Shown here in pieces: positions 193 through 31,981 of a DNA stretch of 32,058 nt. Source of the DNA: an uncultured Paracoccaceae bacterium (GTDB lineage: Bacteria; Pseudomonadota; Alphaproteobacteria; Rhodobacterales; Rhodobacteraceae); contig CANMPL010000020.1 of assembly GCA_947499715.1 (NCBI GenBank), positions 1 to 32,058 of the forward strand, read 5' to 3'. Numbering within the stretch: position 1 is the first letter of the stretch; the number at the start of each line of letters is the position of its first letter. The position numbers and the translations under genes are program-made. Under the pieces are notes generated by a model. The model searched no databases. It saw nothing but the letters and a program-made list of their open reading frames with translations, and was not told where the DNA came from.

Positions 193-1083
193 TTAGCTGG
201 GTAGTATGGCACCTCTTGCGCCGATCACTTTGATTGCCAGATTATGTGCCGAGACGGCTGCCTTTCTTACATCTCCTGTCTGGAGACACACACTGAGAAA
301 GCTGCCGTTGAAGGCGTCGCCGGCCCCTGTAGTATCCACGACATTGGAAACTCCCGATGTAAATGGCCCTTAGGGACACCCCTTTGGGCACAACAATTCG
401 GGGCCATCTGCGCCACGTTTTAATTCGCAAACCTGCATATCATACCCCGCAAGTCTTGCTCGCGCCGCATCTGCGGTTTCGCCAAACAGGGCAAGTTCGT
501 CGTCAATCGATGGGAACCCCAGATCTGTCAGAGCCCAGGCCTGTGCAATACAATCGCGGGCTACATCGGCGTTTTCCCAAAGGCTGGGGCGGTAGTTGCT
601 GTCAAATGCCACTTTGGTACCGGCCAAACGTGCTTTGCTGATCGCGTCCAAAAAACCGGCACGTGACTGAGGGCTGAGGATCGCCAACGTTATCGCTGAA
701 AACACGATCACATCGACACCATTCAACATGCTGAAATCGAGCGCGTCGTCGGAGCCAAACATCTGACGCGCGGCCGAGTTTTCGCGCCAATATGTGAAAC
801 TGCGCTCGCCTGCGTCATCGACGGTAATCGCATACAAGCCGACCCCGCGTGTGGCATGTCGTGTAACGCGGTCGCAATCGATGCGTTGGTCCTGACTAAA
901 TTCAACAATCCGATCAGACATTGCATCCATCCCAACGCCTGAGCCGAGCATGACGTTCGCCAAGCTTCCCAAACTACGTTTCAAATAGATTGCGGTGCTC
1001 AACACATCTCCGGCGACACCAACTAAGGCATTGCCTGAGTTTCGGTCTGAGGCCAGTTCGATCATCGCTTCACCGACGCGCGT
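193..1083 (-). pseudogene. PfkB-family 2-keto-3-deoxygluconate-type kinase, broken
   Basis: The family phosphorylates 2-keto-3-deoxy sugar acids with ATP. The reading frame opens with GEAMIELA, the N-terminal signature of KDG kinases, and runs to a TAA at 370-372 that leaves 231 codons from the ATG at 1065. The same frame continues uninterrupted beyond that stop for 58 more codons and carries the indispensable C-terminal motif DTTGAGDAF (GAGD at 316-327, with the catalytic Asp), ending at TAA 193-195. With the stop read through, the length is about 296 residues, normal for the family. The expected start position (1081-1083) is ACG instead of ATG, 6 nt after an AAGG ribosome site; the first ATG is 6 codons further in. 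Two lesions point to a pseudogene. A sequencing error, stop readthrough or ACG initiation cannot be excluded. It is the last gene of the operon, 23 nt after the CoA-transferase stop. Confidence 0.8.
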
Positions 1084-1106
1084 AAGTCACCTTGGGGCTG
1101 CGTCCT

Positions 1107-2264
1107 TCACAACTTAAACTCCGCACGGATTGCAGCGGAATCAGCACCAATTTTCGGGGCGGCCGCTGTGGATGATGCGCGGGCACCGTTTATTCTTAGA
1201 GGGGATCGGGTCAGGCGCAGCGGCCTGCCCATGGCGTTTTCGACACTTTGCAGCATGTCCAGATTTAGGAACGCTTCCTCGTTTAGGAATTCAGCCCAAT
1301 CCAGCACCTTCGAGCACCAAATGTCATGTGGTTGTAGGATTGCCAACCAGTGTTCAGTGTTTTCCATCACCAGTTTGCCTGCAATCAGGCGCTTGATCTC
1401 GTCGCGATCCTTGAACCATGTGTCTGGCCGATCTGCGTAGGCTTTCAGATCGACAATTTCCAGCAAATCGGCCAAGTGATCGATCGGCGTCATCGCGATG
1501 GCCAGATAACCATTGGCGGTCGGATAAACGCCATAGGGCGCCGAGAGGCCAACATGGGCAGATCGAAATTTGGACCTCTGTGGCGGGCGGCCACCATCAT
1601 TCAGATGAGTTGCAAGAACTTCAAATTGGAAATCCACCATACTTTCGAGAAGGCTGGTTTCCACATGGCTCCCTTGCCCGCTGATCCCCTTGCGAACAAG
1701 TCCAGCCAAAACGCCCTGACAGATGTTTGCACCTGCGAACATGTCAGCCACCGCCAGACCAAAGGGCACCGGCCCGTCGTCAGAATGTCCGTTCAGCCAC
1801 ATGACTCCCGACCGCGCCTGGGCTAACAGGTCTTGCCCCGGAAACTTAACCCAGGGGCCGTCCGGGCCATAGCCAGAGACTGAGCCGTAAACGATATGTG
1901 GTGCGAATTCGTTCACCTGGTCATAACCGAGCCCAAGCCGTTCGATCACACCGGGGCGGAAGTTCTGGATCAACACGTCCGCCTTGGCGATCAGCACCTT
2001 TAGGGCCGTCATGTCGTTTGGGTCCTTCAGGTTCAAGGCCAGACTTTCCTTGCCTCTGTTGATTGCATGGAAAATGGTGCTGTCTCCATCAACCATTGTG
2101 TCGGACAGATAAAGACTGCGGGACAGATCGCCGCCATCGGGGCGTTCGATCTTGATGACACGCGCGCCTAGATCCTGAAGGCGCAAGGATGCATAGGGAC
2201 CGGCCAGGAACTGCGACAAATCCAGGACCAAAATACCTTCAAGCGGCAGGTGGGTCGTCGTCAT
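1107..2264 (-). CDS. CaiB/BaiF family (class III) CoA-transferase, copy 1
   Basis: A protein of 385 residues, typical for class III CoA-transferases, which move CoA between carboxylic acids through an aspartyl-CoA anhydride. The N-terminal LDLSQFLAGPYAS and VIKIERPDGGD motifs and the NRGKESLALNLKD and NFRPGV motifs are family hallmarks. The catalytic Asp is probably D174 in AVADMFAG. The start ATG lies 2 nt after the stop of the mutarotase gene, so it is tightly coupled. It is clearly paralogous to the CoA-transferase at 8754-9938 in the same operon. The substrate cannot be read from the sequence. The context (sugar importer, dehydrogenase, lactonase) suggests a sugar-derived organic acid, while CaiB-type carnitine or racemase roles are less likely here. 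Confidence 0.9.
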   Translation of the reverse strand: MTTTHLPLEGILVLDLSQFLAGPYASLRLQDLGARVIKIERPDGGDLSRSLYLSDTMVDGDSTIFHAINRGKESLALNLKDPNDMTALKVLIAKADVLIQNFRPGVIERLGLGYDQVNEFAPHIVYGSVSGYGPDGPWVKFPGQDLLAQARSGVMWLNGHSDDGPVPFGLAVADMFAGANICQGVLAGLVRKGISGQGSHVETSLLESMVDFQFEVLATHLNDGGRPPQRSKFRSAHVGLSAPYGVYPTANGYLAIAMTPIDHLADLLEIVDLKAYADRPDTWFKDRDEIKRLIAGKLVMENTEHWLAILQPHDIWCSKVLDWAEFLNEEAFLNLDMLQSVENAMGRPLRLTRSPLRINGARASSTAAAPKIGADSAAIRAEFKL

Positions 2265-2266
2265 GT

Positions 2267-2599
2267 TCAGCCTTCCGCCAAGAAAATTCGGTCCATACCA
2301 GCCCAGAATTCACCATCTTTACGAGATGCCAAGGGCGCCATCATCGGCATACACAACGCCCACCACTCCTGCGTCTTTGCGTGCTCTGCCATAAGGGCCA
2401 TATCGGCGTCGTGATTTGAGCCATGATATTCATAGTATGCGAACATCAGGTGATCTGGTTCATGCAGGAAGATCGAATAATTGCGGATGTTACAATCGTG
2501 AATTCTGTCCAGCACTTCGGGCCAGACGTCAGCATGGACACGTTTGTATTCGGCCATAAACTCAGGTTTGACTTTGATGGCAAATCCCATGCGTTCCAT
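2267..2599 (-). CDS. L-rhamnose mutarotase family protein (RhaM-like)
   Basis: A protein of 110 residues, close to the 104 of E. coli RhaM. It has the family pattern of an N-terminal MGFAIKVKPE strand, YKRVHADVWPEV with the probable catalytic His at residue 22 (same position as in RhaM), NYSIFL, and a C-terminal EWW followed by a short tail. The family is a small alpha+beta barrel that interconverts alpha and beta anomers of L-sugars; members act on L-rhamnose or L-fucose, so the sugar is not fixed by sequence. The gene lies 1 nt after the end of the oxidoreductase gene and 2 nt before the CoA-transferase gene. A mutarotase beside a sugar dehydrogenase fits an oxidative (lactone) pathway, since such dehydrogenases act on one anomer. 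Confidence 0.85.
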   Translation of the reverse strand: MERMGFAIKVKPEFMAEYKRVHADVWPEVLDRIHDCNIRNYSIFLHEPDHLMFAYYEYHGSNHDADMALMAEHAKTQEWWALCMPMMAPLASRKDGEFWAGMDRIFLAEG

Positions 2600-2600
2600 G

Positions 2601-3665
2601 TTATGCCCCCCTCTGCGGTAAAGATTTTATAGGTTCAAACGGGCGTGATGCCGAAGCATAGCAGGCCTCGACGATTGCCATCGTGACCCACGCACTGTCC
2701 ACCGAGGTCATCAGAGTATCGTCCTCGCCCGACACAAAGCGCTGCATGTTATTCATGACCAGTTCGAATGCATCGGGGAACCAGTGACCTTGTAGCGGCA
2801 CCAGCGTCATAGTCGCGCCACGCGAGCCCATCCAAAGCTCATCAGGTTCACCACGCGGATAATCCAGCAGCACGCCCAGTTTGACCACAGCTGCACCCTT
2901 GTCCCCTTCAAAGCGGATTGAACTATCCTGATGTGAACGCCCAAAATCGTGGTGATGGTTGATCGACAATGTCACCCGCAGGTCATCGTCATATTCAAGG
3001 ATTGCCGATGTGCGGGTATCCGTCAGCTTGGACCCCGGATAGGAGTAGCTGCGCGCGACCACCCCTTTAGGCGTGCCGACCAGACTTTGAATAAGATCAA
3101 TGTAGTGGATCGAATGCGAGACGATCTCGACCCGGGGATCCTGTTCCAGCGTCGGAAACAGATGCCAAGGGGTCACTAAATTGAGATGCACCTCAATCTC
3201 GGTCATCTGGCCAAAGAAGCCTTTTGTCATCGCATCCCGTATCGCCAGCATCATCGGTGCATAGCGCAGCTGGAAATTGACGGCGGCAGTCAGGTTTTTG
3301 CGCCGGCAGATAGCTAAGATGTCATCCGCCACGGCCAGATCGACACCCATGGGTTTCTGAATGAGAACCGGCGCGCCGTCGGGCAGAATGTTCAGCATGT
3401 CGACATGCACATGGTGGCTGCTGGCCAGGTCAAAAACCACGCCGTCTTGGGCGGCCACCTCATCAAGGTTATCAAACACGCGCGGGATGTCGAATTGATC
3501 CGCCACGGCGCGGGCACGATCGCGGTTGCGGTTCCATATGCCGGCAACTTCGTAACCAGCCCGACGATAGGCGGGCATATGGCTATCAACCACAATTCCC
3601 CCAGCTCCGATGATGACAATCGGGCGCGGGGCGCTCGGTTTTGGCCAAGTTTGGTTGAACGCCAT
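2601..3665 (-). CDS. Gfo/Idh/MocA family sugar dehydrogenase
   Basis: A protein of 354 residues. The N-terminal Rossmann fold has IVIIGAGGIVVDSHMPAYRR (about residues 16-35), followed by GIWNRNRDRA and the conserved IQKPMGVDL segment (the EKP-type motif, here QKP, with the catalytic Lys). The C-terminal half is the usual open alpha/beta domain. The family oxidises sugars, inositols or sugar acids with NAD(P). The start at 3665 is chosen because AAAGGAAA lies just before this ATG; an upstream ATG at 3710 has no such site. It sits between iclR and the mutarotase gene. Likely role (inference): oxidation of the imported sugar at C1 to a lactone, the substrate of the amidohydrolase at 11656-12561. 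Confidence 0.85.
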   Translation of the reverse strand: MAFNQTWPKPSAPRPIVIIGAGGIVVDSHMPAYRRAGYEVAGIWNRNRDRARAVADQFDIPRVFDNLDEVAAQDGVVFDLASSHHVHVDMLNILPDGAPVLIQKPMGVDLAVADDILAICRRKNLTAAVNFQLRYAPMMLAIRDAMTKGFFGQMTEIEVHLNLVTPWHLFPTLEQDPRVEIVSHSIHYIDLIQSLVGTPKGVVARSYSYPGSKLTDTRTSAILEYDDDLRVTLSINHHHDFGRSHQDSSIRFEGDKGAAVVKLGVLLDYPRGEPDELWMGSRGATMTLVPLQGHWFPDAFELVMNNMQRFVSGEDDTLMTSVDSAWVTMAIVEACYASASRPFEPIKSLPQRGA

Positions 3666-3693
3666 CGTCTTTCCTTTTGGGATATTTCGCCAG

Positions 3694-4479
3694 TCAGCCG
3701 ACGCCGACAAGCTGGGTTATTGTCTCGCCCGCCAGCGTGACCGCTTCGCGGATCACCTCGGGATCGGGGCCATGGGCGCTTTGCAATGTAGCCACAATCA
3801 GCGCCGCTTTGATCGCTGACTGGGGGGATCCGACCAAAACACCGACATCCAGTCCACCAACAAACCGCTCACCATGAGCAATTTCATAGCCGCGGTCCTG
3901 CACAGACTTTATACGGATCAGGAATGTGTCCTGCACATCCTGCGGCAGTTTGGCAAACTCAGTGTAATTGCGCAGGTAGTCGTCACGTTCTGATTGCTCC
4001 ATTGATGCCAGAATGATCCGTCCCGACGTCGTGGCAATCGCTGAATGGCGCGAGCCAACTTCGACTGACAAGCGCAGTGGTTTGGGGCTTTCGTGCTGCG
4101 CCAGAACAACGATCTCGCCCTCACGCAACATGGTCAGGTGGCAGGTCTCTCCGACTTCTTCTGAGAGGTTGCGCATCACCGGCAAGGCGACACGCAGCAG
4201 CTCTTCGTATGGAGAATGCATACGGCTAAGCTCAAACAGCTTGAGTGTCAGACGATACTGCCCCGCCTGCGTGCGGCGGATATAACCACGGGTTTCCAGC
4301 GCAGAAAGGATGCGAAAGATTTCGCTGGCACTGCGCCCAAGGGCACGCCCGATTTCAGCCTGCGACATGGACATCGCATTTTCACTCAGCAGCTCGATCA
4401 CATCCAACGCCTTATCCAGCGCAGGCACAGAGTATTTTTGGCCAGGCTTCTTTTCCGTGGATGTATCTTCTACCGTCAT
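3694..4479 (-). CDS. IclR family transcriptional regulator
   Basis: A 261-residue protein. The N-terminal winged helix (about residues 15-75) contains SQAEIGRALGRSASEIFRIL and LETRGYIRR, and the C-terminal half is an IclR effector-binding domain (GETCHLTMLREGEIVVLA, then SRHSAIATTSGRIILA). The chosen ATG at 4479 has GGGA 6 nt upstream; alternatives at 4485 and 4518 exist, and a longer frame to 4674 would overlap the permease gene by over 100 bp. IclR proteins usually control adjacent operons for aromatic or sugar-acid use, often responding to a pathway intermediate. Here the gene lies inside the operon it probably controls, so autoregulation is likely. The paired 15-bp boxes at 9973 and 10075 are its best candidate operators. 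Confidence 0.9.
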   Translation of the reverse strand: MTVEDTSTEKKPGQKYSVPALDKALDVIELLSENAMSMSQAEIGRALGRSASEIFRILSALETRGYIRRTQAGQYRLTLKLFELSRMHSPYEELLRVALPVMRNLSEEVGETCHLTMLREGEIVVLAQHESPKPLRLSVEVGSRHSAIATTSGRIILASMEQSERDDYLRNYTEFAKLPQDVQDTFLIRIKSVQDRGYEIAHGERFVGGLDVGVLVGSPQSAIKAALIVATLQSAHGPDPEVIREAVTLAGETITQLVGVG

Positions 4480-4552
4480 AATCATTCCCAATTTCTCGCC
4501 CCGGGCACCCAAGGACATCTGGACCCTACCAAGCGGCGCGGCGCGGATGCTT

Positions 4553-5704
4553 TTAGGCCATAGCTTTTTTGCGCCGCGATCCGCCAACCGTATAGATCGC
4601 TGCAGCGGCGACAACCACGGTACCCTCGATGACACCCTGATAGTTTGCACCAAGATTGAGGATATTGAAGCCATTGGTCAGGGTAAACAGCAACAACGCT
4701 CCGACCAGCGTCTTGATCACGCTACCGGCCCCACCAAACAATGACGTTCCTCCAAGAATGGCGGCTGCAATGACCGTCAGTTCAGCGCCCTGAAGTGCCG
4801 TCGGGTTCACCGCACCCAACCGGGATCCGAACAGGATGCCCGCAAACCCCGCTGTCGCACTGGACAAAACAAAGCCCGCCATCTTGTAGACGCCGACATT
4901 CACGCCCGAGAGGCGCGCAGCAATTGGATTGCCCCCCGTTGCATAGACCCGCCGCCCGATGGTCGTGTAGCTAAGGACACCCCACACGATCGCCGTATAG
5001 ATTGCAGTGTAAATCACAGGTTTGGCCACGCCGAGCTCAGCCCCACCCCAAAACGCGGTCAATAGCATCGCGGCGCCTGCAACAATCGCACCCGGGACGC
5101 CCACATCGACGTGGGTACCGGTGCGTCGCGCGCGCAGCAATCGCACACCAAACCACACGATCAGCAGAATCCCAGCCACAATCAGTAGCATTTGGATTGG
5201 TACTCTTCCGCCCTCGAAAGCGACCATTTGGGCTTTGGCTTCCGGTGTGGATACGATCAACGAGCGGCCATTGGTCAGGATCAGCACCAGACCACGGATC
5301 CCGGTGAGCGTGCCAAGGGTCACAATGAAGGCGTTGATTCCAAGCAGTTGCACAATTGCGCCGTTGAGGGCACCTACCATGCCACAGGCAACCAAGGCGA
5401 TGATCGCAGCCGCCCCGAAGCCCATCGGCCCAGCAAGTGCGACGGATATTGCGGCACCAAGCGCAGCAACCGAACCGACTGACAGATCGAAGTTGCCGGT
5501 GATCAAGACGACCGTCATCGCAACACCCATCAATGCAATCATCGAGCTTTGATAGAGGATATTGGTGATGTTGACCGGACTGAAATAGGGCGGACGGCCA
5601 GAAAGGCTCGTCACCACACCAAGGGTGATCATCAACAAAATCAGCGCATAATATACGCCAGCTTCGCGCAGGCCAAAATGGCGTTTCCAATCGGACTTAA
5701 GCAT
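4553..5704 (-). CDS. Sugar ABC transporter permease (RbsC/BPD_transp_2 type)
   Basis: A 383-residue integral membrane protein with about 9-10 hydrophobic segments. It carries motifs of the ribose/xylose permease family: NILYQSSMIALMGVAMTVVLITG, GNFDLSVGSV, GINAFIVTLGTLTGIRGLV, YTTIGRRVYATGGNPIAARLSG (the EAA-like coupling loop) and AAILGGTSLFGGAGS. The start at 5704 is preceded by AGAAGG and overlaps the stop of the ATPase gene (5697-5699), which gives translational coupling. The tail is lysine/arginine rich (GGSRRKKAMA). It forms the channel of the importer with the ATPase (5697-7259) and the binding protein (7266-8228). The substrate is probably a monosaccharide. Confidence 0.92.
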   Translation of the reverse strand: MLKSDWKRHFGLREAGVYYALILLMITLGVVTSLSGRPPYFSPVNITNILYQSSMIALMGVAMTVVLITGNFDLSVGSVAALGAAISVALAGPMGFGAAAIIALVACGMVGALNGAIVQLLGINAFIVTLGTLTGIRGLVLILTNGRSLIVSTPEAKAQMVAFEGGRVPIQMLLIVAGILLIVWFGVRLLRARRTGTHVDVGVPGAIVAGAAMLLTAFWGGAELGVAKPVIYTAIYTAIVWGVLSYTTIGRRVYATGGNPIAARLSGVNVGVYKMAGFVLSSATAGFAGILFGSRLGAVNPTALQGAELTVIAAAILGGTSLFGGAGSVIKTLVGALLLFTLTNGFNILNLGANYQGVIEGTVVVAAAAIYTVGGSRRKKAMA

Positions 5705-7259
5705 TTTGGATACCTTCTTTTTGTGGCGCTTTGGCCATGTCAGTTGCGCTGATACCCGAGGCAAGGAGGATCAGAGTCTGATCGTCGACATCCTTTGAAT
5801 CGCGCTCGGCCACCACGGCCCCGTCGCGCATCACAAGAATGCGATCCGAGACAGCCAGTATTTCTTCGAATTCGGATGAGATGATGATGATGGCGACACC
5901 GTCGGCAGCCAGCTTGCGCACAAGCGCAAGAATGTCTGCCTTGGCCCCCACGTCGATCCCCGCCGTAGGCTCGTCAAGTATGATGAGCTTTGCATCCCCA
6001 AACAACCAGCGCGACACCGTAACTTTCTGGGCATTGCCGCCCGAAAGTTCGGTTACAAATGTTTCCGCGCTGTCCGTTTTGATTTTAAGGGTTTCGATCG
6101 CACGTTCGGCCCACTCCATCTCAACATCGCGCTGCAAAAAGATCCCGTGTTTTGCAGTCTTGTCCAGATAGGGGAGCGAGTTGTTTTTCCAGATTTCAAA
6201 CACAGGCACGATGGCCTGCTGATCGCGATCTTCGGGAACCAAAGCCATGCCGGCCTTAACCGATTGGCTTGGCGAGCGTCCCATGGTTTGCCCGTTCATG
6301 ACAACCTTGCCAGAGGCGTGTTTGTCCGAGCCGAAGATCGCGTGCACCAACTCGCTTCGACCAGATCCAAGAAGTCCGGCGATGCCCACAACTTCGCCCG
6401 CGCGCAGTGTCAGGTTCGTCGGCAACAACCCTTCGGGTGACGCAATATCAGTGCATTCCAGAACAACCTCATCGCGGATTGTCCCGCGTACATTGCGGAG
6501 ATGTTCCAGCGTGCCGACGGTTCTTCCCGCGATGGCATTGGCAATATCTGCCTCGGCCACTTCTGCGGTGACAGCATACATGACTGTTTTGCCATCGCGC
6601 AGGACGGTGACTTCATCCGTCAGGGCCACAATCTCATCCAGAAAATGCGACACAAAGATTATGCCCTTGCCCTGACCGGCAAGCTTTCGAACCGTTGAAT
6701 AAACGATTTCGCGCTCTTCTTTGGCCAAGGAGGCCGTTGGCTCATCCATGACGATCAGATCAGCGCCATAGCTAAGCGCCTGAAGGATGCAAACCATTTG
6801 CCGAGCGCCGATGGATAAATCATTAACCAGATCATTGGGATTAATATGATATCCAACTTCGTCGCAGATTTCGGCAAAGCGGATTTGATCGGACGGGTCG
6901 CGTCGCCACCCCCGCTCTTTCCACAGAAATACATTCTCAAGCACTGACAGGGTCGGCACCAGGGGGATGTTTTGGTGGATCGTCGCGATGCCAGATTTAT
7001 TGGCCTCTAGCGGTGAATTGAAAGCAACCTCTTGTCCTTTCCAAACCTGTTTGCCGCCTGTGGCGGGATAGGTCGCGGACAAGATTTTGATCAGAGTGGA
7101 TTTCCCGGCGCCATTCGCGCCGAGAAGTCCGTGAACCGACCCTGCATAAGCCGCGAAATCCACACCCCGAAGGGCAACCGTTCCGTTCGGAAAGGTCTTT
7201 TGAATTCCTGTTAGGCTTAACAGGGGCTGTTCACCTTTGTGATGTGGTGATTGGCTCAT
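5697..7259 (-). CDS. Sugar ABC transporter ATP-binding protein (RbsA/MglA type, double domain)
   Basis: A 520-residue protein with two nucleotide-binding domains, as in RbsA, MglA and AraG. Domain 1 has Walker A GANGAGKST (residues 47-55), the signature LSIGARQ and Walker B LIVMDEPTAS. Domain 2 (from about residue 265) has the degenerate Walker A GLLGSGRSE that is normal for this family, a full signature LSGGNAQK and Walker B LIILDEPTAG. It powers uptake by the cognate permease and binding protein. The gene starts 6 nt after the binding-protein stop and its stop overlaps the permease start. Confidence 0.93.
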   Translation of the reverse strand: MSQSPHHKGEQPLLSLTGIQKTFPNGTVALRGVDFAAYAGSVHGLLGANGAGKSTLIKILSATYPATGGKQVWKGQEVAFNSPLEANKSGIATIHQNIPLVPTLSVLENVFLWKERGWRRDPSDQIRFAEICDEVGYHINPNDLVNDLSIGARQMVCILQALSYGADLIVMDEPTASLAKEEREIVYSTVRKLAGQGKGIIFVSHFLDEIVALTDEVTVLRDGKTVMYAVTAEVAEADIANAIAGRTVGTLEHLRNVRGTIRDEVVLECTDIASPEGLLPTNLTLRAGEVVGIAGLLGSGRSELVHAIFGSDKHASGKVVMNGQTMGRSPSQSVKAGMALVPEDRDQQAIVPVFEIWKNNSLPYLDKTAKHGIFLQRDVEMEWAERAIETLKIKTDSAETFVTELSGGNAQKVTVSRWLFGDAKLIILDEPTAGIDVGAKADILALVRKLAADGVAIIIISSEFEEILAVSDRILVMRDGAVVAERDSKDVDDQTLILLASGISATDMAKAPQKEGIQNA

Positions 7260-7265
7260 GCCGAA

Positions 7266-8228
7266 TTACCATTGACCCACACATTCATCGACGTTGTCGA
7301 TGCTCACACCCGGAGTTGGATAGGTGATGAACTCAGCGTCGTGGGGCGTGCCGTTGTTGACATCATAAAGAATCTGGAACGAAATCCGGCCAATTTCTTC
7401 TGGTTTGTAGCAAACGGTCCCGTCTACGCTGCCGTCTTGGATCGCGGCGATCGCCAGTTTCGAACCACCGAAGCCAACAAGAAGCGCATCGGATCCAGCT
7501 GAGGCCACAGCACGTGCACAGCCTACAACCATGTCGTCAGCCTGGTTAAAGAACAGGTCGATGTCAGGATTGGAGGCCAGGATGTTCTGACACGCAGCCT
7601 CGCCCTTTTCAGCAGTCCAGTCACCGGGCTGTGCAGCCACGATTGTATACGCCTGACCAGCTTCGGCCATTCCAGCTTCAAAACCTTCGGTGCGTTGCTG
7701 AACTTCTGCATAGCCAGCAGCACCTTCGATAATCGCGATTTGCGCGTTCTCGGTACCTGCCAAAAGACGTGCGGCCAGCAGACCAACTTCACGACCAGCA
7801 GCGACTTCCTGTTGGGTCACCAATGCCGAAAGGCTCTCGTAGACATCATCAATGGGGCGCGTTGCAGGGTCGCCAATCATCGAAGCGGATGCAACTACTG
7901 CGACGCCAGCAGCAGCCGCCTTGTCAGCCCAAGCGGCAGCGACCGCCGAGTCGTTCGGCATAATTGCGATACCTTGAACACCCTGCGCCAGCAGGTCATC
8001 AATGTCGTTGGTTTGCTTCAAGATGTCGCCTTGTCCGTCAAGAACGATGGCCTCGGCACCGACTTCGGTCGCCGCATCCTCAAAGCCCTTTGCGACAGCC
8101 GCCGCAAAAGGAAAGCTCAAGCCGTTACTTGAGTAGCCGTAAGGCCCGGTGTTCTCTGCCAAGGCAGTTGAACCCAGGGTCATGCTCAGGGCCGAAGCGC
8201 TGGCAAGAAGTTTGATCGTCGATTTCAT
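7266..8228 (-). CDS. Periplasmic sugar-binding protein of the ABC importer (RbsB-like)
   Basis: A 320-residue protein. The start at 8228 is preceded by a strong GGAGGA site, and the ATG opens a typical signal peptide (KSTIKLLASASALSMTLGS, probable cleavage after TALA). The mature part is a type 1 periplasmic binding protein of the Peripla_BP_4 family, with SFPFAAAVAKGFEDAA near the N-terminus, DILKQTNDIDDLLAQGVQGI and IMPNDSAVAAAWADKA, and LFFNQADDMVVGCARA in the second lobe. It delivers sugar to the permease/ATPase pair encoded just downstream. The 73-bp gap to the upstream MaoC gene carries a 14-bp palindrome (8267-8280), perhaps an internal regulatory or processing site. Confidence 0.92.
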   Translation of the reverse strand: MKSTIKLLASASALSMTLGSTALAENTGPYGYSSNGLSFPFAAAVAKGFEDAATEVGAEAIVLDGQGDILKQTNDIDDLLAQGVQGIAIMPNDSAVAAAWADKAAAAGVAVVASASMIGDPATRPIDDVYESLSALVTQQEVAAGREVGLLAARLLAGTENAQIAIIEGAAGYAEVQQRTEGFEAGMAEAGQAYTIVAAQPGDWTAEKGEAACQNILASNPDIDLFFNQADDMVVGCARAVASAGSDALLVGFGGSKLAIAAIQDGSVDGTVCYKPEEIGRISFQILYDVNNGTPHDAEFITYPTPGVSIDNVDECVGQW

Positions 8229-8266
8229 CTTGGTCCTCCCAATGATGTTAGTAGCTCGCTTGCTAT

Positions 8267-8280
8267 GGTGCATCTGCACC
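8267..8280. promoter_or_regulatory. Palindrome in front of the sugar-binding-protein gene
   Basis: GGTGCA-TC-TGCACC is a perfect 6+6 inverted repeat in the only sizeable gap of the operon, 39 nt upstream of the binding-protein ATG. A weaker inverted repeat (TAGC..GCTA, 8252-8265) lies beside it. It could be a repressor site for an internal promoter or an mRNA hairpin that raises binding-protein expression. No run of T follows, so it is not an intrinsic terminator. Confidence 0.4.
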
Positions 8281-8301
8281 GGGTTTGCCTTTCCTCGCAG
8301 T

Positions 8302-8754
8302 TCAGCCCAAAGGCTTCTTGCGTTCCACGAGGTAAAGGTGGTCACAGACCAGAACGACTTGATTGTTCTGGTTGGTGATTTCGATGGCTTCATGGACAAA
8401 TCCATGAGTGGCCCTTTTTGGGTGATCTCGCTTTTGCGTTATCTCGGCTTTGACGCTGATCGTGTCACCGATGTGCACAGGACGAATGAACCGCAGCTTG
8501 TCATAGCCGTATGACAAGGCATGTGGGTTGATAGTGGACGCGGTCAGGCCGATGCCGACAGAAAACACCAGTGTGCCGTGGGCGATACGCCGTTTGAAAT
8601 CCTGCGTCGCGCACCATTCTTTGTCCATGTGATGCGGAAAGAAATCGCCTGTATGCCCCGCGTGAAGCACAATGTCCGCCTCAGTGATCGTGCGTCCAAA
8701 GGTCCGCCGGGAATATCCGATTTCGTAATCTTCGAAAAATTCTTCGACAATCAT
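8302..8754 (-). CDS. MaoC family hydratase/dehydratase
   Basis: A 150-residue single hot-dog domain protein. It carries the hydratase-2 motif with catalytic Asp and His, [18 protein letters not shown] (about residues 28-45), followed by [15 protein letters not shown]. Single-domain MaoC proteins hydrate or dehydrate enoyl-CoA or branched hydroxyacyl-CoA esters such as mesaconyl-CoA. The ATG at 8754 overlaps the TGA of the upstream CoA-transferase (8754-8756) and has AAGGAG 7 nt upstream, so the two are translationally coupled. The coupling suggests that the hydratase acts on the CoA ester made by that transferase. No matching lyase or thioesterase gene is seen in the window. Confidence 0.88.
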
Positions 8755-9938
8755 CACGCCGCTCCTTCTGCATTTGGGTTCAGATCAGCCAGAACGTGAT
8801 CCGTATCCGCACCAAGTGCGGGCGCGCCGACGGGATTTGACAGTACGTTTCCATCAATCCGGATTGGGCAGGTTGTGGTTTCAAATGAGGTTCCGGTTGT
8901 GTTGGTGACCAACTGCACCACATCAAGAGATTGCAACGCACCTGACCGCTCAAGCGCTGGCCAATCAAGAATTTCGGCGCACCAAACACCTGCGGGTTCC
9001 AACAGGTTCATCCATTGACCGGTTGACCCCGTCGCAAGATGATGTCGCAGCACAGCCTTGATCTCATCTCGTTTCGAGTACGCCTCAGAAGGCTCACTCA
9101 ATGCGGCCAACCGGTCCAGGGAGAAAACAGCGCCCAATCGCGCAATCGGCGTCATCGCAATCGCGATGTAGCCGTCTTGTGTCTTGTAGATACCGTAGGG
9201 CGCAGTCGCATGTACGTTCGCCCCGCTGATCGCGCTGCGCACTGGCTGCACATGCCCGTCATTCAGGTAGCTGCTGAATTGTTCAAACTGCAAATCCATT
9301 GCCGACGCCAAGAGGCTAACTTCGACCAGTGCCCCTTGCCCGGTGCGTGACTGACGCAGCAATGCAGCCAATATGCCCTGAACAAGATGGTTTCCCGCCG
9401 CAATGTCGGTGATTGAAACGCCCATTGGCGTCGGGTCATCATCCGTGTTTCCGGTCAACCAAACCATGCCGGAGCGCGCCTGGACCAACAGATCCTGCCC
9501 CGGTAAATCCCGCCAGGGCCCTTCGGTGCCATAGCCCGAAACGACACCGTAAATGATGCGCTCGTTTAAGGATTGAACCTGTTCAAATCCAAGCCCGATG
9601 CGGTCCATCACGCCAGGGCGGAAGTTGTGAATCATCACGTCAGCCGTCGCGATCAACGCTTTTACGGCCTCAAGGTCGGTCGCATCTTTAAGATCGACCG
9701 CAACCGACTTTTTGCCACGATTGATAATGTGGAACAGCAAGCTGTCCTCACCGACCCATTGGTTTGCGACAGCCAGACCACGGCACTGATCACCCCCCTG
9801 TGGGCGCTCGACCTTGATGACCTCGGCCCCCAGATCCGCGAGGCGCGTCGCGCAAACAGGACCCGCGAGGAACTGCGAGAAATCCAATACCCGCATGCCA
9901 GCAAGCGGCATTTTCAAATGCGTCTGGTCCGCTGCCAT
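8754..9938 (-). CDS. CaiB/BaiF family (class III) CoA-transferase, copy 2
   Basis: A protein of 394 residues and the first gene of the long minus-strand operon. It has [45 protein letters not shown] and [13 protein letters not shown], with the probable catalytic Asp at residue 178 (SITDIAAG). The start is well supported by AAGGAGG 6 nt before the ATG. It is paralogous to the CoA-transferase at 1107-2264 along its whole length, so the pair could be two subunits of one enzyme or two enzymes of successive steps. Its promoter region holds one of the two identical 15-bp boxes (9973-9987). It is coupled to maoC downstream. Confidence 0.9.
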
Positions 9939-9972
9939 GTGATTCCTCCTTGTGTTGATGGACGAGAAAACA

Positions 9973-9987
9973 TTTTATATATGAGAA
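9973..9987. promoter_or_regulatory. Putative operator box 1 (minus-strand operon)
   Basis: TTTTATATATGAGAA occurs here and again, identically and in the same orientation, at 10075-10089. The context ATTTTATATATGAGAAAT is an imperfect 18-bp palindrome (12 of 18 positions match the reverse complement), as expected for a dimeric repressor. It lies 35 bp upstream of the CoA-transferase ATG, where a core promoter or its operator would sit. The IclR regulator encoded in the operon is the obvious candidate ligand (inference). Confidence 0.6.
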
Positions 9988-10074
9988 ATCAAGAAGTATT
10001 TTTGCCGCACTGCGGCATAAGAATTGCTATGAGTTGAGGAATTTGGAAATGACTCCAATAAATTTGAGAACTAG

Positions 10075-10089
10075 TTTTATATATGAGAA
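10075..10089. promoter_or_regulatory. Putative operator box 2 (plus-strand operon)
   Basis: This is the second exact copy of the 15-bp box, 102 bp from the first, and it ends 46 bp before the ATG at 10136. With box 1 it places one site in front of each of two divergent transcription units, which is a common arrangement for joint control by one regulator. Confidence 0.6.
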
Positions 10090-10135
10090 TACTATACAAG
10101 ACCCCTGAACCACCGTGAAGGAGCCGCCCATCAAT

Positions 10136-10549
10136 ATGAAAACTCATATGAAAGTGGTTGGTATGACCTCGGATCATCCACGCGCTTATGACCGCCTCGT
10201 CGCTGCATCCGCCACTGATGAAGGCCAAACCGGTGTTGCAATCGATTGGGAAAAACGCAGCTTGAAGGACTTCGCAGATGTCCCGATCAGCACATTGGCA
10301 AAGGCCTACGACCTGATCATTCTTGATCGTCCCCATGTCGGACAGATTGCTAAAAGCGGGTGCTTGCGCCCCCGCCCACGATGGCAACTGCTCTTTCGCT
10401 GGGTGGATCAGCTGACCCGCATTGATTTGCCCGTTTTTGTAGGGATCGGAGCCTGTCGCGCGATCCCCGGAGGCGCCGCAATTGGTGTGTCGGCGCTGCA
10501 CTCCCAGTCGATGACGGCTACTCAATTGGTTTCAAAGGAATTATCATGA
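10136..10549 (+). pseudogene. Solute-binding-protein-like gene, truncated (N-terminal part only)
   Basis: From the ATG at 10136 (AAGGAG 12 nt upstream) the frame gives 137 residues. About the first 80 match the N-terminal lobe of family 1 extracellular solute-binding proteins in a pattern I recognise: TSDHPRAYDRLVAASA, IDWEKRSLKDFAD and YDLIILDRPHVGQIAKSGCL. These proteins are normally near 400 residues. After GCL the frame turns into an Arg/Pro-rich tail unlike the family, so an internal deletion or frameshift is likely. No signal peptide precedes the domain. The stop TGA overlaps the ATG of the next gene (ATGA), so coupling to the dehydrogenase survives. A functional short protein cannot be excluded. 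An upstream GTG at 10115 in the same frame lacks a ribosome site. Confidence 0.6.
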
Positions 10550-11565
10550 CCCACTTCGCCACCGTCCTGAGCGCGGCAATGACTGTAGAGACTATTGATC
10601 GCAACCTGACTGACGCTGTGCCAAAGGGTCATGTGCGCCTTGCCCTCGCCACGGCGAGTCTTTGCGGCACCGATCTGCACTATTATCGCCATTTCTCGAA
10701 CGCCGGGTTCAATATGCAGCGGGCTGTCACCCTAGGCCACGAAGCTTGTGCATATGTTGTCGATGCCAACGGCAGTACCCTGACGGCAGGGAAGCTGGTC
10801 GCGCTGAACCCAATCATCAATTGTGGCACCTGTGAGAATTGCAGTGCTGGCCTTGAAAACCACTGTTCCAATAAGAAATTCCCCGGCTCGGCAACCACCG
10901 TTCCCCATATCGACGGCTTTTTTCAGGCCGCTTTCGACTTCCCCGCGACATGTTGTTATCCTGTGCCCGACGGCACCAACCCCGAGCATCTGACCTTTGC
11001 TGAACCTCTCGCCTGTTCAATGCATTCTGTCACCATGACCGGCGCCAAACAGGGGGATCGCATCCTGATAACCGGATGTGGGCCGATGGGTCTGTTGGCC
11101 GTGGTCGCCGCGAAAGCCAAGGGGATCGACGTTCATGTCACCGATGTGCGTGGCGGACCGGTGGACCTCGCGGTTCAGATCGGGGCCAGTCGCGGATTCG
11201 TTGCCGGGCAACATGACCCAGACAACGACAGTTATGATGCGGTGATAGAAGCCAGCGGATCGCCCCATGCCTTTAACACCGCGCTGGATACCGTGAAGCG
11301 ACGCGGCAAGGTTTCAATCCTTTCGAACATTCAGCTTTCTGATGTGCCAGTGAACCTGCATAAGATCATGCTCAAAGAAGTGGCCGTGACCGGCTCATTC
11401 CAATTCAACGCGGAATTCAAGCAAGCGCTCGACCTGATTACGTCCGGCCAACAGGAATTTGAACAACTGATTGCTGCACGCTTTTCCCTCGCAGACACGC
11501 GTGCCGCACTGGACTACATGTTGGCTGGCAAAGCGGCGGGTAAGATCTTGATCAAACCCGCGTAG
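10546..11565 (+). CDS. Zinc-dependent alcohol dehydrogenase, L-idonate 5-dehydrogenase-like
   Basis: A 339-residue MDR-superfamily protein. Catalytic zinc ligands are C40 (SLCGTDLHYY), H65-E66 (LGHEACAYV) and E153 (FAEPLA). Structural zinc is held by C93, C96, C99 and C107. The NAD-binding motif is GCGPMG at 177-182. Spacing and motifs (GTDLHYY, NPIINCGTCENC, FPGSAT, PHIDGFF) follow E. coli IdnD, which oxidises L-idonate to 5-ketogluconate, so a sugar-acid or polyol substrate is likely. AAGGA lies 6 nt before the ATG, which overlaps the stop of the truncated upstream gene. In this cluster it probably oxidises a secondary alcohol of the aldonate. Exact specificity is unknown. Confidence 0.87.
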   Translation: MTHFATVLSAAMTVETIDRNLTDAVPKGHVRLALATASLCGTDLHYYRHFSNAGFNMQRAVTLGHEACAYVVDANGSTLTAGKLVALNPIINCGTCENCSAGLENHCSNKKFPGSATTVPHIDGFFQAAFDFPATCCYPVPDGTNPEHLTFAEPLACSMHSVTMTGAKQGDRILITGCGPMGLLAVVAAKAKGIDVHVTDVRGGPVDLAVQIGASRGFVAGQHDPDNDSYDAVIEASGSPHAFNTALDTVKRRGKVSILSNIQLSDVPVNLHKIMLKEVAVTGSFQFNAEFKQALDLITSGQQEFEQLIAARFSLADTRAALDYMLAGKAAGKILIKPA

Positions 11566-11655
11566 ATGGATCAAGCGATGCCCAGAATATCCCGGGCAAA
11601 GACCCGGTGAACAAGCTGGGCGCACTTTGTCTGATACTGACGGAAGGATAGACCA

Positions 11656-12561
11656 ATGTTGCCGCCAATCGTCGATAGTCATGTTCATTGGCGCGATCCA
11701 CGAAAGAACCCCTATGAGGCTTTGTCAGATGCCGTGGCAGAAGACGGCACACGCACAGCGGCTCAGGCGCAAACCTATCTACCGGCCGACTATTTGGCCG
11801 ATGCCGGGGAATACGAGATAGCGGGCGTCGTCCATATTGAAGCCGAATGGGACAAGACTGACCCCGTTGGCGAAACGCGCTGGCTGCACGATTTGGTGCA
11901 GAACAACGGCACCAATGGGCTGCCTGTCGTTATCGTTGGATACTGCGATCTATCACGCGATGACGCGGATCAAATACTTGCGGCTCATGCGGCCTTTCCG
12001 CTTACCCGGGGTATCCGGCATATTCTGAACAGGGTCGATGGTATGCCTTCATTGTGTTGGGCTGAGCGAGAATTTCTGGCTGAGACCGCGTGGCGGCGCA
12101 ACTATGCTCTGCTGGCAAAACATGGGCTGGATTTTGATTTGATGTGTTTTGCCCACCAACTGGCGCCATTTGCACAATTGGCGGCAAGCCATCCAAACAT
12201 TCCCGTGCATCTCGAACACGCTGCCCTACCTTGGGATCATAGCCCTGAAGGGCGCACGACTTGGCGTGAAGGGATGCGTGCACTCGCGGCGTTGCCCCAT
12301 GCCGATGTGAAAATATCGGGCCTGGGCAACACCATTCCTAATTGGAACGAGGATACCATCCGCGATTATGTGCTGGAGACGATCAGTATCTTCGGCGTTG
12401 AGCGTGTGAGCTTTGCCTCGAACTTCCCGACTGATCAACAGTTCAGCAATATGGCGAAGATTTGGGGGGCCTTTAACAGAATAACTTCAGATTTCACCGA
12501 TTGCGAACGCACAGCAATGTTTGGTGCCAACGCTTTAAGGACCTATCGCTTCGCTCCGTAG
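11656..12561 (+). CDS. Amidohydrolase family 2, sugar-lactonase-like
   Basis: A 301-residue TIM-barrel protein of the COG3618 type, which includes L-fuconolactonase and L-rhamnonolactonase. It opens with the metal-site motif VDSHVHW (His 9 and 11). Further marks are GIRHILNR (about 120), PNIPVHLEHAALPW (about 180-195), VKISGLGN and the late Asp motif SFASNFPTD (about 255). GGAAGGA lies 8 nt before the ATG. It follows the dehydrogenase gene after 90 bp. Likely role: opening of the 1,4- or 1,5-lactone made by the Gfo/Idh/MocA dehydrogenase of the divergent operon. It is the last gene of the plus-strand unit, and no intrinsic terminator is evident after it. Confidence 0.85.
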   Translation: MLPPIVDSHVHWRDPRKNPYEALSDAVAEDGTRTAAQAQTYLPADYLADAGEYEIAGVVHIEAEWDKTDPVGETRWLHDLVQNNGTNGLPVVIVGYCDLSRDDADQILAAHAAFPLTRGIRHILNRVDGMPSLCWAEREFLAETAWRRNYALLAKHGLDFDLMCFAHQLAPFAQLAASHPNIPVHLEHAALPWDHSPEGRTTWREGMRALAALPHADVKISGLGNTIPNWNEDTIRDYVLETISIFGVERVSFASNFPTDQQFSNMAKIWGAFNRITSDFTDCERTAMFGANALRTYRFAP

Positions 12562-13034
12562 CAATGGTCAGGTCTGATGCTTGCTAGTTAAGTCAACGGT
12601 AGAGGTGTCTTCGAGGCACTCAAAAGCAATCTAGGTTACATTCGGTAGTTAACGATGATCTGCGTTTGTACAGACCACTATCCATATTTACGTCTTACAA
12701 ATGCTGTATTCGCAATGGGCTTTGATTGGCAGAAGCAGACCTTGGTACTGGCGCCGCGGATGTCCGCTTCGTCCGCGGAGTCGACATCGAGCGCCCGATT
12801 TATCTCGCAGGCGCAGCTAATGTCCGCAATTTGGGCTGCAACCGCAGCATCTCGAAAGAAGGGCGAAGGTCCGGTTAGGGCCGAAAGCGCACATGAAGCT
12901 TGAAGTGACCAGGTCCCGTGAGGCCTCGCGCTAGAACTGCGCCCTTCCACAGCCTGAATGCGACACATGATGGTCTAAATCACACCTATGTGTCCCAAAA
13001 TCCAGAACTATGTGTCGTCTCACAAATTGAAAAT
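12562..13034. other. Gene-poor spacer between sugar cluster and tRNA-Arg
   Basis: No convincing gene is seen in these 473 bp. Short frames on both strands (for example 12678-12968 on the minus strand) lack ribosome sites and known motifs. The 3' part carries the 9-mer CTATGTGTC twice (12986-12994 and 13008-13016) and the reverse complement CGACACAT at 12961-12968. These lie directly downstream of the tRNA-Arg 3' end, a common place for integration scars, but no integrase gene is visible. Confidence 0.5.
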
Positions 13035-13111
13035 TGGCGGACTGGGGAGGATTCGAACCCCCGACCCCTTGATTCGTAGTCAAGTACTCTATCCAACTGA
13101 GCTACCAATCC
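13035..13111 (-). tRNA. tRNA-Arg (anticodon ACG)
   Basis: The minus strand folds as a 77-nt tRNA with CCA encoded. The acceptor GGATTGG pairs with CCAGTCC, the D arm is GCTCAGTTGGATAGAG(T), the anticodon arm is TTGA-CTACGAA-TCAA with anticodon ACG, and the T arm is GGGGG-TTCGAAT-CCTCC. Discriminator G and CCA end at 13035. ACG, edited to ICG in bacteria, reads CGU/CGC/CGA arginine codons. It stands alone at the border between the sugar cluster and the conserved core. Confidence 0.95.
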
Positions 13112-13165
13112 GCGTAACGGGGGATTTAGACCCGCATCCCCGGCGATGCAAGTCCCATTTGCGGA

Positions 13166-14563
13166 TTATTCCGCTGCGGGTGCCAGGGTCATGTCTGCCT
13201 TGGGCAATTGGATCGCAAAAGTCGTGCCGGTGTCATCGGTGCGTTGCAGCTCGAGCCGTCCACCGTGGCCGCGCACCAGATCAGCGGCAATCACCAGGCC
13301 CAGACCCGATCCGCCCTTGCGCACACCGCCCTGAAATGGCTGGAACAGATGTTCGCGCGCCCGCGCGGGCAGGCCGGGGCCGGTGTCCGTCACCGTGACC
13401 CACCATGCGCCGTCATCCTCAAATCCCTTGATGCAGATCTCACCGGGTTTGCCGGTCGCCATGATCGCCTGACGCGCATTGCGCACAAGATTGAATATCG
13501 CGCGGAAAAGCTGCTCTCCGTCGGCGCGCAGGGTCATCGAGGCCGGGATATCCTCGGCGAAGGACAGCGGGTGATCGGCAGCCGCCAGACGCTCACTATC
13601 AATGACGTCATTGACGATCTGCGACAGGTTCACGCGGGTCAGTGCGGGGGCCGGTTCATCCACCTTGCCAAAGGCCAGCGTCGTTTCGCACAGGTTCACC
13701 GCGCGGGTGATCGACCCCACCAGCTTGGGCGCCATACGTTTGACCAGCGGATCCTCTGAACTTTCGATCCGGTCGGTAAACAACTGTGCAGAGGTCAGGA
13801 TATTACGCAGATCATGGCTCACCTTGGCCACGGCACCACCCAATTGCGCGAGCCTATCCTTTTGCTTGAGCGATCCGGTCAACTGCGTCTGCATCAATTG
13901 CAACGCCTCTTCTGCGTCGCGCAATTCGCGCACGCCTGCACCGGGTTCAATGATCCGGCGCGCATCCTCGGGGGCGGCGGCATAGCGCTGCATGGATCCG
14001 ACCACACCCTTGATCGGGCGCACCAGAAAAATCTGCACCGCCACAAACAACAGCCCCGCCGTGATGACCGAGATGATGGCCGACAGAATCAGAACATTCC
14101 GCCCATACTCCCACATCGCCTCCTGAAGCGGGTATTGCATCATCGTGACCTCGATCAGCAGCCCGCCATCCTGCACCGGGTTGCCGATCACCCGGATCAC
14201 CCGGTCTTCGCCATCCCAAATGGTGCGCATCGCGTCCATGATCAGCGTCATGCTGGTGGGGTCGCGCATATCGTAGGTCTGGAAAATCGGCGATGGGATG
14301 GGCGAGGATAGCGCGAGCTGCCGGATCTCATCGCGGCGCAGGACCACGTTAAACACACCGGCATTCTTCAAAAGCTCGGCTTCCAACGCGGGGGAGATCA
14401 TATCGTCCGCCTCCAGCGCCAGGGACGCAATCTGCGCTCGTTCCAGTCGCGCCAGCAGGTAATCCTGCCGAAACCGCGCGACAGAGGGCACAAAGATCAA
14501 CACCTCCGCCAGCATCACAAAGATGACGGTCAGGATCAGAAATCGACCTGAAAGGGTGTTCAT
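13166..14563 (-). CDS. Membrane sensor histidine kinase
   Basis: A 465-residue protein. Membrane segments lie at about residues 8-28 and 157-181 and flank a periplasmic sensor region of about 125 residues. A HAMP-like linker (VRPIKGVVGSM) follows. The phosphoacceptor is His250 in KVSHDLRNIL, and the ATPase domain has the N box NLVRNARQA (358-366), the G1 box DTGPGLP and the G2 box GGSGLGL (417-423). No response regulator is adjacent, so it is an orphan kinase or is paired with a distant partner. It lies 15 nt after the oxidoreductase gene and is probably co-transcribed with it and the TVP38 gene. The signal is unknown. Confidence 0.9.
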   Translation of the reverse strand: MNTLSGRFLILTVIFVMLAEVLIFVPSVARFRQDYLLARLERAQIASLALEADDMISPALEAELLKNAGVFNVVLRRDEIRQLALSSPIPSPIFQTYDMRDPTSMTLIMDAMRTIWDGEDRVIRVIGNPVQDGGLLIEVTMMQYPLQEAMWEYGRNVLILSAIISVITAGLLFVAVQIFLVRPIKGVVGSMQRYAAAPEDARRIIEPGAGVRELRDAEEALQLMQTQLTGSLKQKDRLAQLGGAVAKVSHDLRNILTSAQLFTDRIESSEDPLVKRMAPKLVGSITRAVNLCETTLAFGKVDEPAPALTRVNLSQIVNDVIDSERLAAADHPLSFAEDIPASMTLRADGEQLFRAIFNLVRNARQAIMATGKPGEICIKGFEDDGAWWVTVTDTGPGLPARAREHLFQPFQGGVRKGGSGLGLVIAADLVRGHGGRLELQRTDDTGTTFAIQLPKADMTLAPAAE

Positions 14564-28315: not shown

Positions 28316-28327
28316 ATTCAGACCTTT

Positions 28328-29296: not shown

Positions 29297-29301
29297 ATCG
29301 G

Positions 29302-30921: not shown

Positions 30922-30934
30922 GTGTTCTCTCCCC

Positions 30935-31930: not shown

Positions 31931-31981
31931 GACTAAGAACCCCCTCGTTGGCTTCGCTTGCGAGCGCGTTGCCATTCTTTG

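Follow-up and report, generated by a model that had tools for sequence, protein, structure and literature searches.

The window, that is, the whole 32 kb contig (32,058 nucleotides), ends about 190 bases beyond the last piece of a kinase gene and carries next to that end the cluster listed in Table 1. All genes named by the initial annotation, which had placed two CaiB-type CoA-transferases and a MaoC-type hydratase in an operon with a sugar importer, a RhaM-type mutarotase and a Gfo dehydrogenase, were found where it had put them. The reading frames of CaiB1 and the hydratase overlap (GCGTGATG), which is consistent with the translational coupling suggested there, and the final kinase gene is indeed broken. 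The RbsB/A/C-type importer genes form a block at 4553-8234 on the minus strand. That annotation had not mentioned the IclR regulator or the two relics, one of them of F03, a partner of CaiB.

Table 1. Genes and gene remnants of the cluster, by position in the window
Feature	Position	Strand	Family evidence and remarks
PfkB/KdgK-type kinase	193..1086	-	reading frame broken near 369/370
CaiB2, second class III CoA-transferase	1107..2264	-	PF02515, 322 bits
RhaM-family mutarotase	2267..2599	-	PF05336, 110 bits
Gfo/Idh/MocA dehydrogenase	2601..3710	-	PF01408; start probably 3665
IclR-family regulator	3694..4674	-	PF01614/PF09339; start uncertain
RbsC-type permease	4553..5704	-	start set by eye
RbsA-type ATPase	5697..7259	-	
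RbsB-type sugar-binding protein	7266..8234	-	PF13407, 150 bits
MaoC-type hydratase, MaoA group	8302..8757	-	PF01575, 78 bits
CaiB1, class III CoA-transferase	8754..9938	-	PF02515, 336 bits
F03 relic	10151..10499	+	pieces 10151-10383 and 10424-10499; F03 model, 99 bits
Relic of SDR dehydrogenase 3' end	10491..10545	+	DNA match to locus L148 from 7444
IdnD-like zinc dehydrogenase	10546..11565	+	PF08240/PF00107
Lactonase-like amidohydrolase	11656..12561	+	PF04909, 106 bits

The two CaiB copies are 47% identical and both align an Asp with Asp169 of E. coli CaiB, which we take to be the catalytic residue; neither matched an NCBIfam equivalog model at or above its cutoff. A solved homologue of the MaoC-type protein is 4ffu (194 bits). 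Specific NCBIfam models scored well below their cutoffs for the mutarotase (RhaM/YiiL, 55 bits against 99.6), the IdnD-like protein (L-idonate 5-dehydrogenase, 198 against 469) and the amidohydrolase (L-fucono-lactonase, 82 against 400), and comparison of Gfo with solved structures (best score 47 bits) gave no substrate assignment. The window Gfo is 47-54% identical to the Gfo proteins of related clusters, in which the IclR family also recurs.

F03, present in the window as a relic only, is predicted to adopt a sugar-binding-protein fold (pLDDT 92.6; TM 0.86 to 1eu8 and 7yzs), and public records label it an extracellular or ABC-transporter solute-binding protein. It has the fold of a solute-binding protein without an evident export signal: among the 87 of 90 entries considered for this feature (the other three lack the conserved N-terminal motif), 31 have an in-frame stop fewer than 20 residues upstream of that motif, none of the ten highest-scoring of the remainder in a hydropathy scan showed a clear signal peptide, and the annotated start lies at most six codons from the matched start in 9/9 annotated records. 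This distinguishes F03, for which CaiB is moreover a fixed neighbour, from ABC sugar solute-binding proteins of the LpqY, SmoF and MalE type, with which it shares the fold.

Class-level genome sampling proved poor for F03, recovering it from six of 289 genomes with an alignment query and from the same six of 385 with another. The F03 set comprised 132 entries, the window relic included; merging at 97% identity reduced it to 117, from which 27 with short flanks, among them the window, L148 and L192, were removed, leaving 90 with at least 3.5 kb on both sides (L090 counted twice, its F03 being split). The module occurs in marine Alphaproteobacteria, including Pelagibacteraceae, as well as Rhodobacteraceae, rhizobia, Vibrionaceae, Bacteroidota and Streptomyces. 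CaiB lies near F03 in 80/90 entries, counts on which a chance neighbourhood of CaiB, hydratase and F03 was rejected, and in 76 of these 80 it is the same-strand neighbour of F03. The ten entries lacking CaiB (seven without and three with MaoC) imply that F03 does not depend on the transferase in every case.

A hydratase of either fold accompanies CaiB in 76 of the 80 CaiB-positive entries: MaoC only in 63, crotonase only in 11 and both in two, with neither in four, one of which (L198) has a MaoC about 13 kb away. The crotonases of the two loci with both folds (L077 and L117), only 29-40% identical to those of other clusters, are probably bystanders. Cluster crotonases fall into three groups, with identities of 67-75%, 60-77% and 72-78% inside and 30-47% between groups, and related CaiB proteins (60-64% identical) are partnered by a crotonase in group B and by MaoC in Streptomyces L153. 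Since MaoC and crotonase are non-homologous, this swap points to a hydration or dehydration step at the level of a CoA ester. The catalytic positions are conserved throughout: the CaiB Asp in 121/121 aligned sequences (both window copies included), the Asp-x4-His dyad of MaoA in 94/94 aligned family members, and the crotonase Glu pair in 12/12 aligned (ten cluster sequences plus the probable bystanders of L077 and L117; the L205 and L208 crotonases were excluded for ORF length). KdgK and IdnD matched in only 1/80 and 4/80 CaiB-positive entries, respectively, so the exact gene set of the window is rare.

The carnitine system of E. coli, in which CoA is recycled between product and substrate while a 3-hydroxy acid loses water, likewise combines a class III CoA-transferase bearing the catalytic Asp (CaiB) with a crotonase bearing both catalytic Glu (CaiD). 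However, E. coli CaiB is only 23-28% identical to 11 module CaiB proteins, and, unlike CaiB/CaiD, the module lies beside sugar importers and sugar dehydrogenases, includes F03 and mostly employs MaoC rather than crotonase. The oxidative L-fucose/L-rhamnose pathway with a diketo-acid hydrolase resembles the window at family level, in a RhaM-type mutarotase, a dehydrogenase and a lactonase-like amidohydrolase that stay below the NCBIfam equivalog cutoffs, and shares MR_MLE/FucD, SDR and FAH genes with the window's relatives, whereas in the window itself no dehydratase was found and FAH is absent; CaiB, MaoC and F03 are not known to be part of this pathway. The L-glucose pathway of Paracoccus, which runs through a Gfo-type dehydrogenase, a lactonase, a 5-dehydrogenase, an SDR and a KDG kinase, appears to resemble the gene sets of the window and L148, and again we know of no CaiB, MaoC or F03 in it. 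The Weimberg-type lower pathway employs a 2-keto-3-deoxypentonate dehydratase and an aldehyde dehydrogenase; related FAH-fold and NADP-type aldehyde dehydrogenase genes occur in L203 and Streptomyces L153, but there they stand beside CaiB, F03 and a hydratase, and no pentonate dehydratase was found.

We propose, with a probability of about 0.5, that a core of F03, CaiB and a hydratase (MaoC or crotonase) carries out a CoA-recycling dehydration of sugar acids in the manner of CaiB/CaiD, alongside Gfo-, SDR- or IdnD-type dehydrogenases, the lactonase-like protein and the sugar importer. Briefly, the sugar would be oxidized to a lactone and opened to the aldonate, which F03 would bind inside the cell for CaiB, and CaiB would load CoA onto it. 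MaoC or crotonase would then eliminate the 3-hydroxyl of the aldonyl-CoA, yielding after tautomerization 2-keto-3-deoxyaldonyl-CoA, from which CaiB would hand CoA to the next aldonate, as CaiB and CaiD do with carnitine. The free 2-keto-3-deoxy acid would pass to KdgK or to KDA-dehydratase-like and aldehyde dehydrogenase enzymes. The sequences show which families are present, that key residues are conserved, that the genes co-occur, that the hydratase is swapped and that the window copy decays; every reaction, the identity of the substrate and what F03 does are what we infer. To the wider view that F03-CaiB-hydratase constitutes a phylum-crossing class of CoA-ester sugar-acid dehydratases, in which hydratases of two unrelated folds have been recruited repeatedly and F03 is a solute-binding protein that became an intracellular substrate-presenting subunit, we give slightly less than even odds.

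The sugar-acid dehydratases known to us are members of the enolase, IlvD/Edd, UxaA, UxuA and DHDPS-type families. In agreement with the initial annotation, which saw no such enzyme in the cluster, searches of the 32 kb contig for MR_MLE, UxaA-type, IlvD/Edd and UxuA homologues found none; as it ends beside the kinase, a dehydratase gene may lie beyond it. An aldonate dehydratase adjacent in related clusters, which the same annotation had named as refuting its reading, does occur in most MaoC-type relatives: MR_MLE is present in 14 of the 17 first relatives and a classical dehydratase in 45/50 MaoC-type loci with long flanks. In loci of marine uncultured Alphaproteobacteria the module is flanked by FucD-, SDR- and FAH-group genes. 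The solved structures nearest to MR_MLE, 3,6-anhydro-galactonate cycloisomerase and, among others, talarate/galactarate dehydratase, gave no substrate assignment either. The CoA module is thus not simply a replacement everywhere; where a dehydratase shares the locus, the CoA step would be unneeded for that reaction or would act on another acid. Consequently the earlier reading that the sugar acid is activated as a CoA ester, favoured by the conserved CaiB-hydratase pairing and the MaoC/crotonase swap, is only partly supported.

These counts favour an alternative in which CaiB, MaoC and F03 process a different pathway acid or a second substrate that is imported, with MR_MLE, FucD or UxaA-type enzymes handling the aldonate and the window's own dehydratase located elsewhere in the genome or past the contig end. 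The host genome outside the window does contain seven MR_MLE and three IlvD-type matches (none to UxaA-type), but its best MR_MLE scores 314 bits compared with 640-728 for cluster members. This alternative also fits poorly with the five remaining long-flank MaoC-type loci, two of them from Bacteroidota, and with the 11 crotonase-only loci, in none of which was MR_MLE, UxaA, IlvD/Edd or UxuA found over 10.5 kb or as far as the locus extends, although an ORF common to L200 and L207, located between SDR and malK and without a Pfam name, could be a dehydratase. Two Bacteroidota plasmids carry F03, two CaiB, a solute-binding protein, Gfo and MaoC and no dehydratase in the 25 kb examined. Two crotonase-only loci, L200 (SGL-family lactonase, F03, CaiB and KdgK-type kinase) and L203 (CaiB, F03, crotonase, NADP-type aldehyde dehydrogenase and a FAH-fold protein matching KDA dehydratase 2q18 at 65.5 bits), combine sugar-oxidizing genes with predicted users of 2-keto-3-deoxy acids, and no dehydratase was found in either. 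Action on another acid appears unlikely, if far from implausible. The module might instead be an epimerase, in which the sugar acid is dehydrated on CoA and rehydrated with the opposite configuration for a common dehydratase. This would account for the coexistence of module and dehydratase in most MaoC-type clusters and draws on the frequent pairing of MaoA with MaoB (54 entries), in which Val replaces the catalytic His in 87/87 sequences; it leaves unexplained the loci with KdgK or KDA-dehydratase-like genes in which no dehydratase was found, and we regard it as improbable.

Decay of the window raises another alternative, namely that CaiB and MaoC are bystanders with classic acyl-CoA substrates in a dying, functionless remnant. 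The larger N-terminal part of the kinase (1086-370, KdgK model positions 10-230 of 303) and its GAGD motif (369-193) lie in different frames, and F03 and SDR are both relics, the former with a DNA match to the intact F03 of L148, a near relative (genome G609) in which the SDR is intact too. Because these genes are broken as well, and because the intact relative L200 keeps a KdgK-type kinase directly after CaiB, the kinase break is better read as decay, and the initial view that it reflects loss of a dispensable keto-deoxy-acid branch was rejected. Also in favour of a remnant, Gfo was found at E<=1e-60 in the host's own genome and in 0/5 other genomes of the genus (1/6). The RbsB-type protein as bait matched in 5/394 genomes including its own, of which only G609, whose counterpart is 90% identical, is a true relative of the window; L149-L151 have a similar importer and no CaiB or MaoC match in the stretches examined. 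Bystander status nevertheless fits badly with the co-occurrence across the family. The CaiB1, MaoC, importer and IdnD frames are open, with dN of 0.07-0.21 against dS above 1.3 relative to L148, values at which dS (not computable for the amidohydrolase) is saturated and recent relaxation is not judgeable, and on contig C23 there is a second cluster whose F03, SDR and crotonase frames are open. A functionless remnant seems the least probable account; the window locus is best explained as the degenerating copy of a conserved module that probably handles sugar acids.

The F03-CaiB-hydratase gene set is apparently undescribed yet widespread in bacteria; no description was found in the open-access literature, an absence that carries little weight. 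For annotation, the extracellular or transporter names now given to F03 call for correction. Growth of a marine Roseobacter group on L-fucose has been reported (PMC9426536). If the proposed dehydration is true, passage through CoA esters would add a new kind of chemistry to carbohydrate catabolism, and F03 would have the first intracellular role known to us for an ABC-type sugar-binding protein fold together with a CoA-transferase. A function could then also be assigned to a gene set conserved in marine Alphaproteobacteria, possible consumers of fucose-like sugars.

The gene set described in the initial annotation, with class III CoA-transferases (CaiB1 and CaiB2) and a MaoC-type hydratase but without a sugar-acid dehydratase, was borne out: the genes are in place, and the contig yielded no MR_MLE, UxaA-type, IlvD/Edd, or UxuA homologue. 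Elsewhere in the same genome (4.0 Mb, 44 contigs, of which the window is the complete contig C20 of 32,058 bases) there are three IlvD-type and seven MR_MLE matches, the best of the latter scoring 314 bits to the cluster-type MR_MLE model and cluster members 640-728. The kinase reading frame is broken, with the contig end about 190 bases past its last piece, and between CaiB1 and IdnD lie the remains of two genes, an SDR and F03, a solute-binding-fold gene. Because both are intact in L148 (genome G609), the nearest relative, with importer proteins 87-90% identical, the window copy of the cluster is decaying and hence a poor representative.

Location and gene content of the window features and of loci gathered for comparison (L-numbers)
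Feature	Position	Orientation	Content
Window, main run		minus strand	CaiB1-MaoC-RbsB-RbsA-RbsC-IclR-Gfo-RhaM-CaiB2-kinase
Window, second arm		divergent from main run	IdnD-amidohydrolase
Window, MaoC	8302-8757		
Window, F03 relic	10151-10383 and 10424-10499		match to F03 of L148
Window, SDR relic	10491-10545		match to end of SDR gene of L148
Window, second sugar-type group	27278-32056		opposite contig end; class II aldolase-like, fructose-bisphosphatase-like, and dihydroxyacetone-kinase-like ORFs (named by eye); ABC ATPase near contig end (malK-type model)
L148		divergent arms	PERM-ATP-SBP-MaoC-CaiB1; F03-SDR-IdnD-amidohydrolase
L039 (own genome, contig C23)	395-17873	divergent arms	CaiB-CaiB-IclR-crotonase-TRAP; F03-SDR-IdnD; further, GMC-type oxidoreductase (named by eye), Rbs-like genes, aldehyde dehydrogenase
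L099-L127 (minus L100, L103, L117, L126)		mixed strands	Gfo, RhaM, importer, RraA, MaoA, MaoB, F03, CaiB, MR_MLE, FucD-, SDR-, FAH-, LldD-like
L200			SDR, SGL-family lactonase, F03, CaiB, crotonase, KdgK-type kinase
L200, ORF shared with L207	6052-7233	between SDR and malK	
L207, ORF shared with L200	~12396-13478	between SDR and malK	
L203			Gfo, SDR, DUF4432 protein, CaiB, F03, crotonase, FAH-fold protein, NADP-type aldehyde dehydrogenase

Counting the own genome, the window MaoC was found in 18 of 248 family genomes (E ≤ 1e-30) and F03 in 31 of 295 (E ≤ 1e-40). An F03 relative is encoded in at least 573 of 595 candidate stretches of a named genome collection, from which the best 80 F03-bearing stretches were taken for analysis. 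Named sources of F03 include Rhodobacteraceae, Hoeflea, Roseibium, Maritalea, Vibrio, Photobacterium, and many uncultured Alphaproteobacteria, as well as a Phycisphaerae bin with no CaiB match and plasmids of rhizobia, Rufibacter, Persicobacter, and Streptomyces. Merging at 97% identity reduced 132 F03 entries to 117 (L090 being counted twice, with its F03 split). Requiring flanks of 3.5 kb or more on both sides left 90, and the window, L148, and L192 are among the 27 excluded.

At about 375 residues, F03 matches SBP_bac_8/SBP_bac_1 and yields a high-confidence structure model (pLDDT 92.6, matched part only) resembling the sugar-binding proteins LpqY (7ape), MalE3 (6dtq), 1eu8, and SmoF (7yzs), with TM scores to the query of 0.83, 0.82, 0.86, and 0.86, respectively. 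In 31 of 87 scorable members a stop codon lies in frame fewer than 20 residues ahead of the conserved N-terminal motif, and in 9/9 annotated records the annotated start falls within six codons of the matched one; F03 is thus most likely a relative of transport proteins that stays inside the cell. No ABC permease was annotated or profile-matched in 25 kb of two Bacteroidota clusters, for which the PLSDB tables are incomplete. The role of the family is wider, since some sugar-type loci (L154, L201, L202, L206, and L209) encode an F03-type protein but lack CaiB. Such a CaiB-less protein adjoins two mannonate dehydratases in Microvirga.

CaiB lies within 10.5 kb of F03 in 80 of the 90 entries, leaving 10 without it; in 76 of these 80 it is the immediate same-strand neighbour of F03. 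The accompanying hydratase is MaoC only in 63, crotonase only in 11, both in two, and neither in four (L139, L156, L195, and L198), the last figure being an upper bound because the L198 cluster does carry a MaoC, some 13 kb off. Cluster crotonases divide into three groups that share 30-47% identity with one another and are mostly no closer to each other than to E. coli CaiD (31-38%); those of the two loci with both hydratases are unrelated to them. Among related CaiB proteins (60-64% identical), those of L155, L203-L205, and L210 are paired with a crotonase, that of the Streptomyces locus L153 with MaoC. The second cluster of the own genome, L039, where the F03 frame is open, carries a CaiB pair with crotonase in place of MaoC. 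As MaoC and crotonase have different folds and share enoyl-CoA hydration, their exchange points to a CoA-ester step. Activation of a sugar acid as a CoA ester with dehydration at that level, as initially proposed, thereby gains real comparative support from the CaiB association and the hydratase swap, but remains an unproven proposal. No published description of the F03/CaiB/hydratase set was found in the open-access literature searched.

The catalytic residues are retained throughout: the CaiB Asp in 121/121, the MaoC Asp and His in 94/94, and the crotonase Glu pair in 12/12 aligned sequences (10 cluster crotonases and two bystanders, with L205 and L208 omitted for ORF length). MaoB, a second MaoC-type protein of about 195 aa (the C01 group, present in L029, L034, L048, and others), keeps the Asp in 86/87 with one gap; because Val replaces the catalytic His in 87/87, it may lack activity and pair with MaoA, the group of the window MaoC, in an asymmetric hydratase. 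Among solved structures, the window MaoC has a close relative in PDB 4ffu (194 bits, labelled oxidase), which may be useful for docking.

Whether the CoA route replaces the dehydratase depends on the part of the family considered. Among CaiB-positive loci with long flanks (8.6 kb or more left, 7.8 kb or more right), a classical dehydratase is present in 45 of 50 MaoC-type versus none of nine crotonase-type loci (Fisher p = 1.6e-7, the loci not being independent); simple replacement, as first envisaged, applies to only part of the family. Screening the 11 crotonase-only loci over 10.5 kb, or as far as the locus extends, for the classical sugar-acid dehydratase families gave no match, and no MR_MLE above 60 bits. 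In two of these loci the missing piece is the aldonate dehydratase: L200, with its kinase at 256 bits against a cutoff of 400, and L203, whose FAH-fold protein is related to 9kkt (394 bits) and to the KDA dehydratase 2q18 (65.5 bits), whose aldehyde dehydrogenase scores 852 bits to 3v4c, and whose DUF4432 protein is of a kind annotated in L155 as aldose 1-epimerase family. The main gap in this argument is the ORF shared by L200 and L207 (47% identical), the L200 copy of which has no Pfam match at E ≤ 1e-8. A Persicobacter set close to that of the window (F03, two CaiB, Gfo, IdnD-like, SDR, MaoC, and a lactonase-family protein) adjoins alpha-L-fucosidase and sulfatase genes. The exact gene set of the window is rare, since among the 80 CaiB-positive entries KdgK is matched in one and IdnD in four.

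In marine Alphaproteobacteria, the module of F03, CaiB, and hydratase stands beside MR_MLE, FucD-, SDR-, and FAH-group genes and an LldD-like gene (named by eye), and so looks to accompany a whole fucose/rhamnose-type pathway. L099-L127 (apart from L100, L103, L117, and L126), from uncultured marine Alphaproteobacteria/Pelagibacteraceae, share a strongly conserved block of about 16 neighbouring genes; bin L120 is named Pelagibacteraceae, and similar uncultured bins are read here as SAR11. In these organisms, the module must serve another substrate, a parallel route, or an epimerase role.
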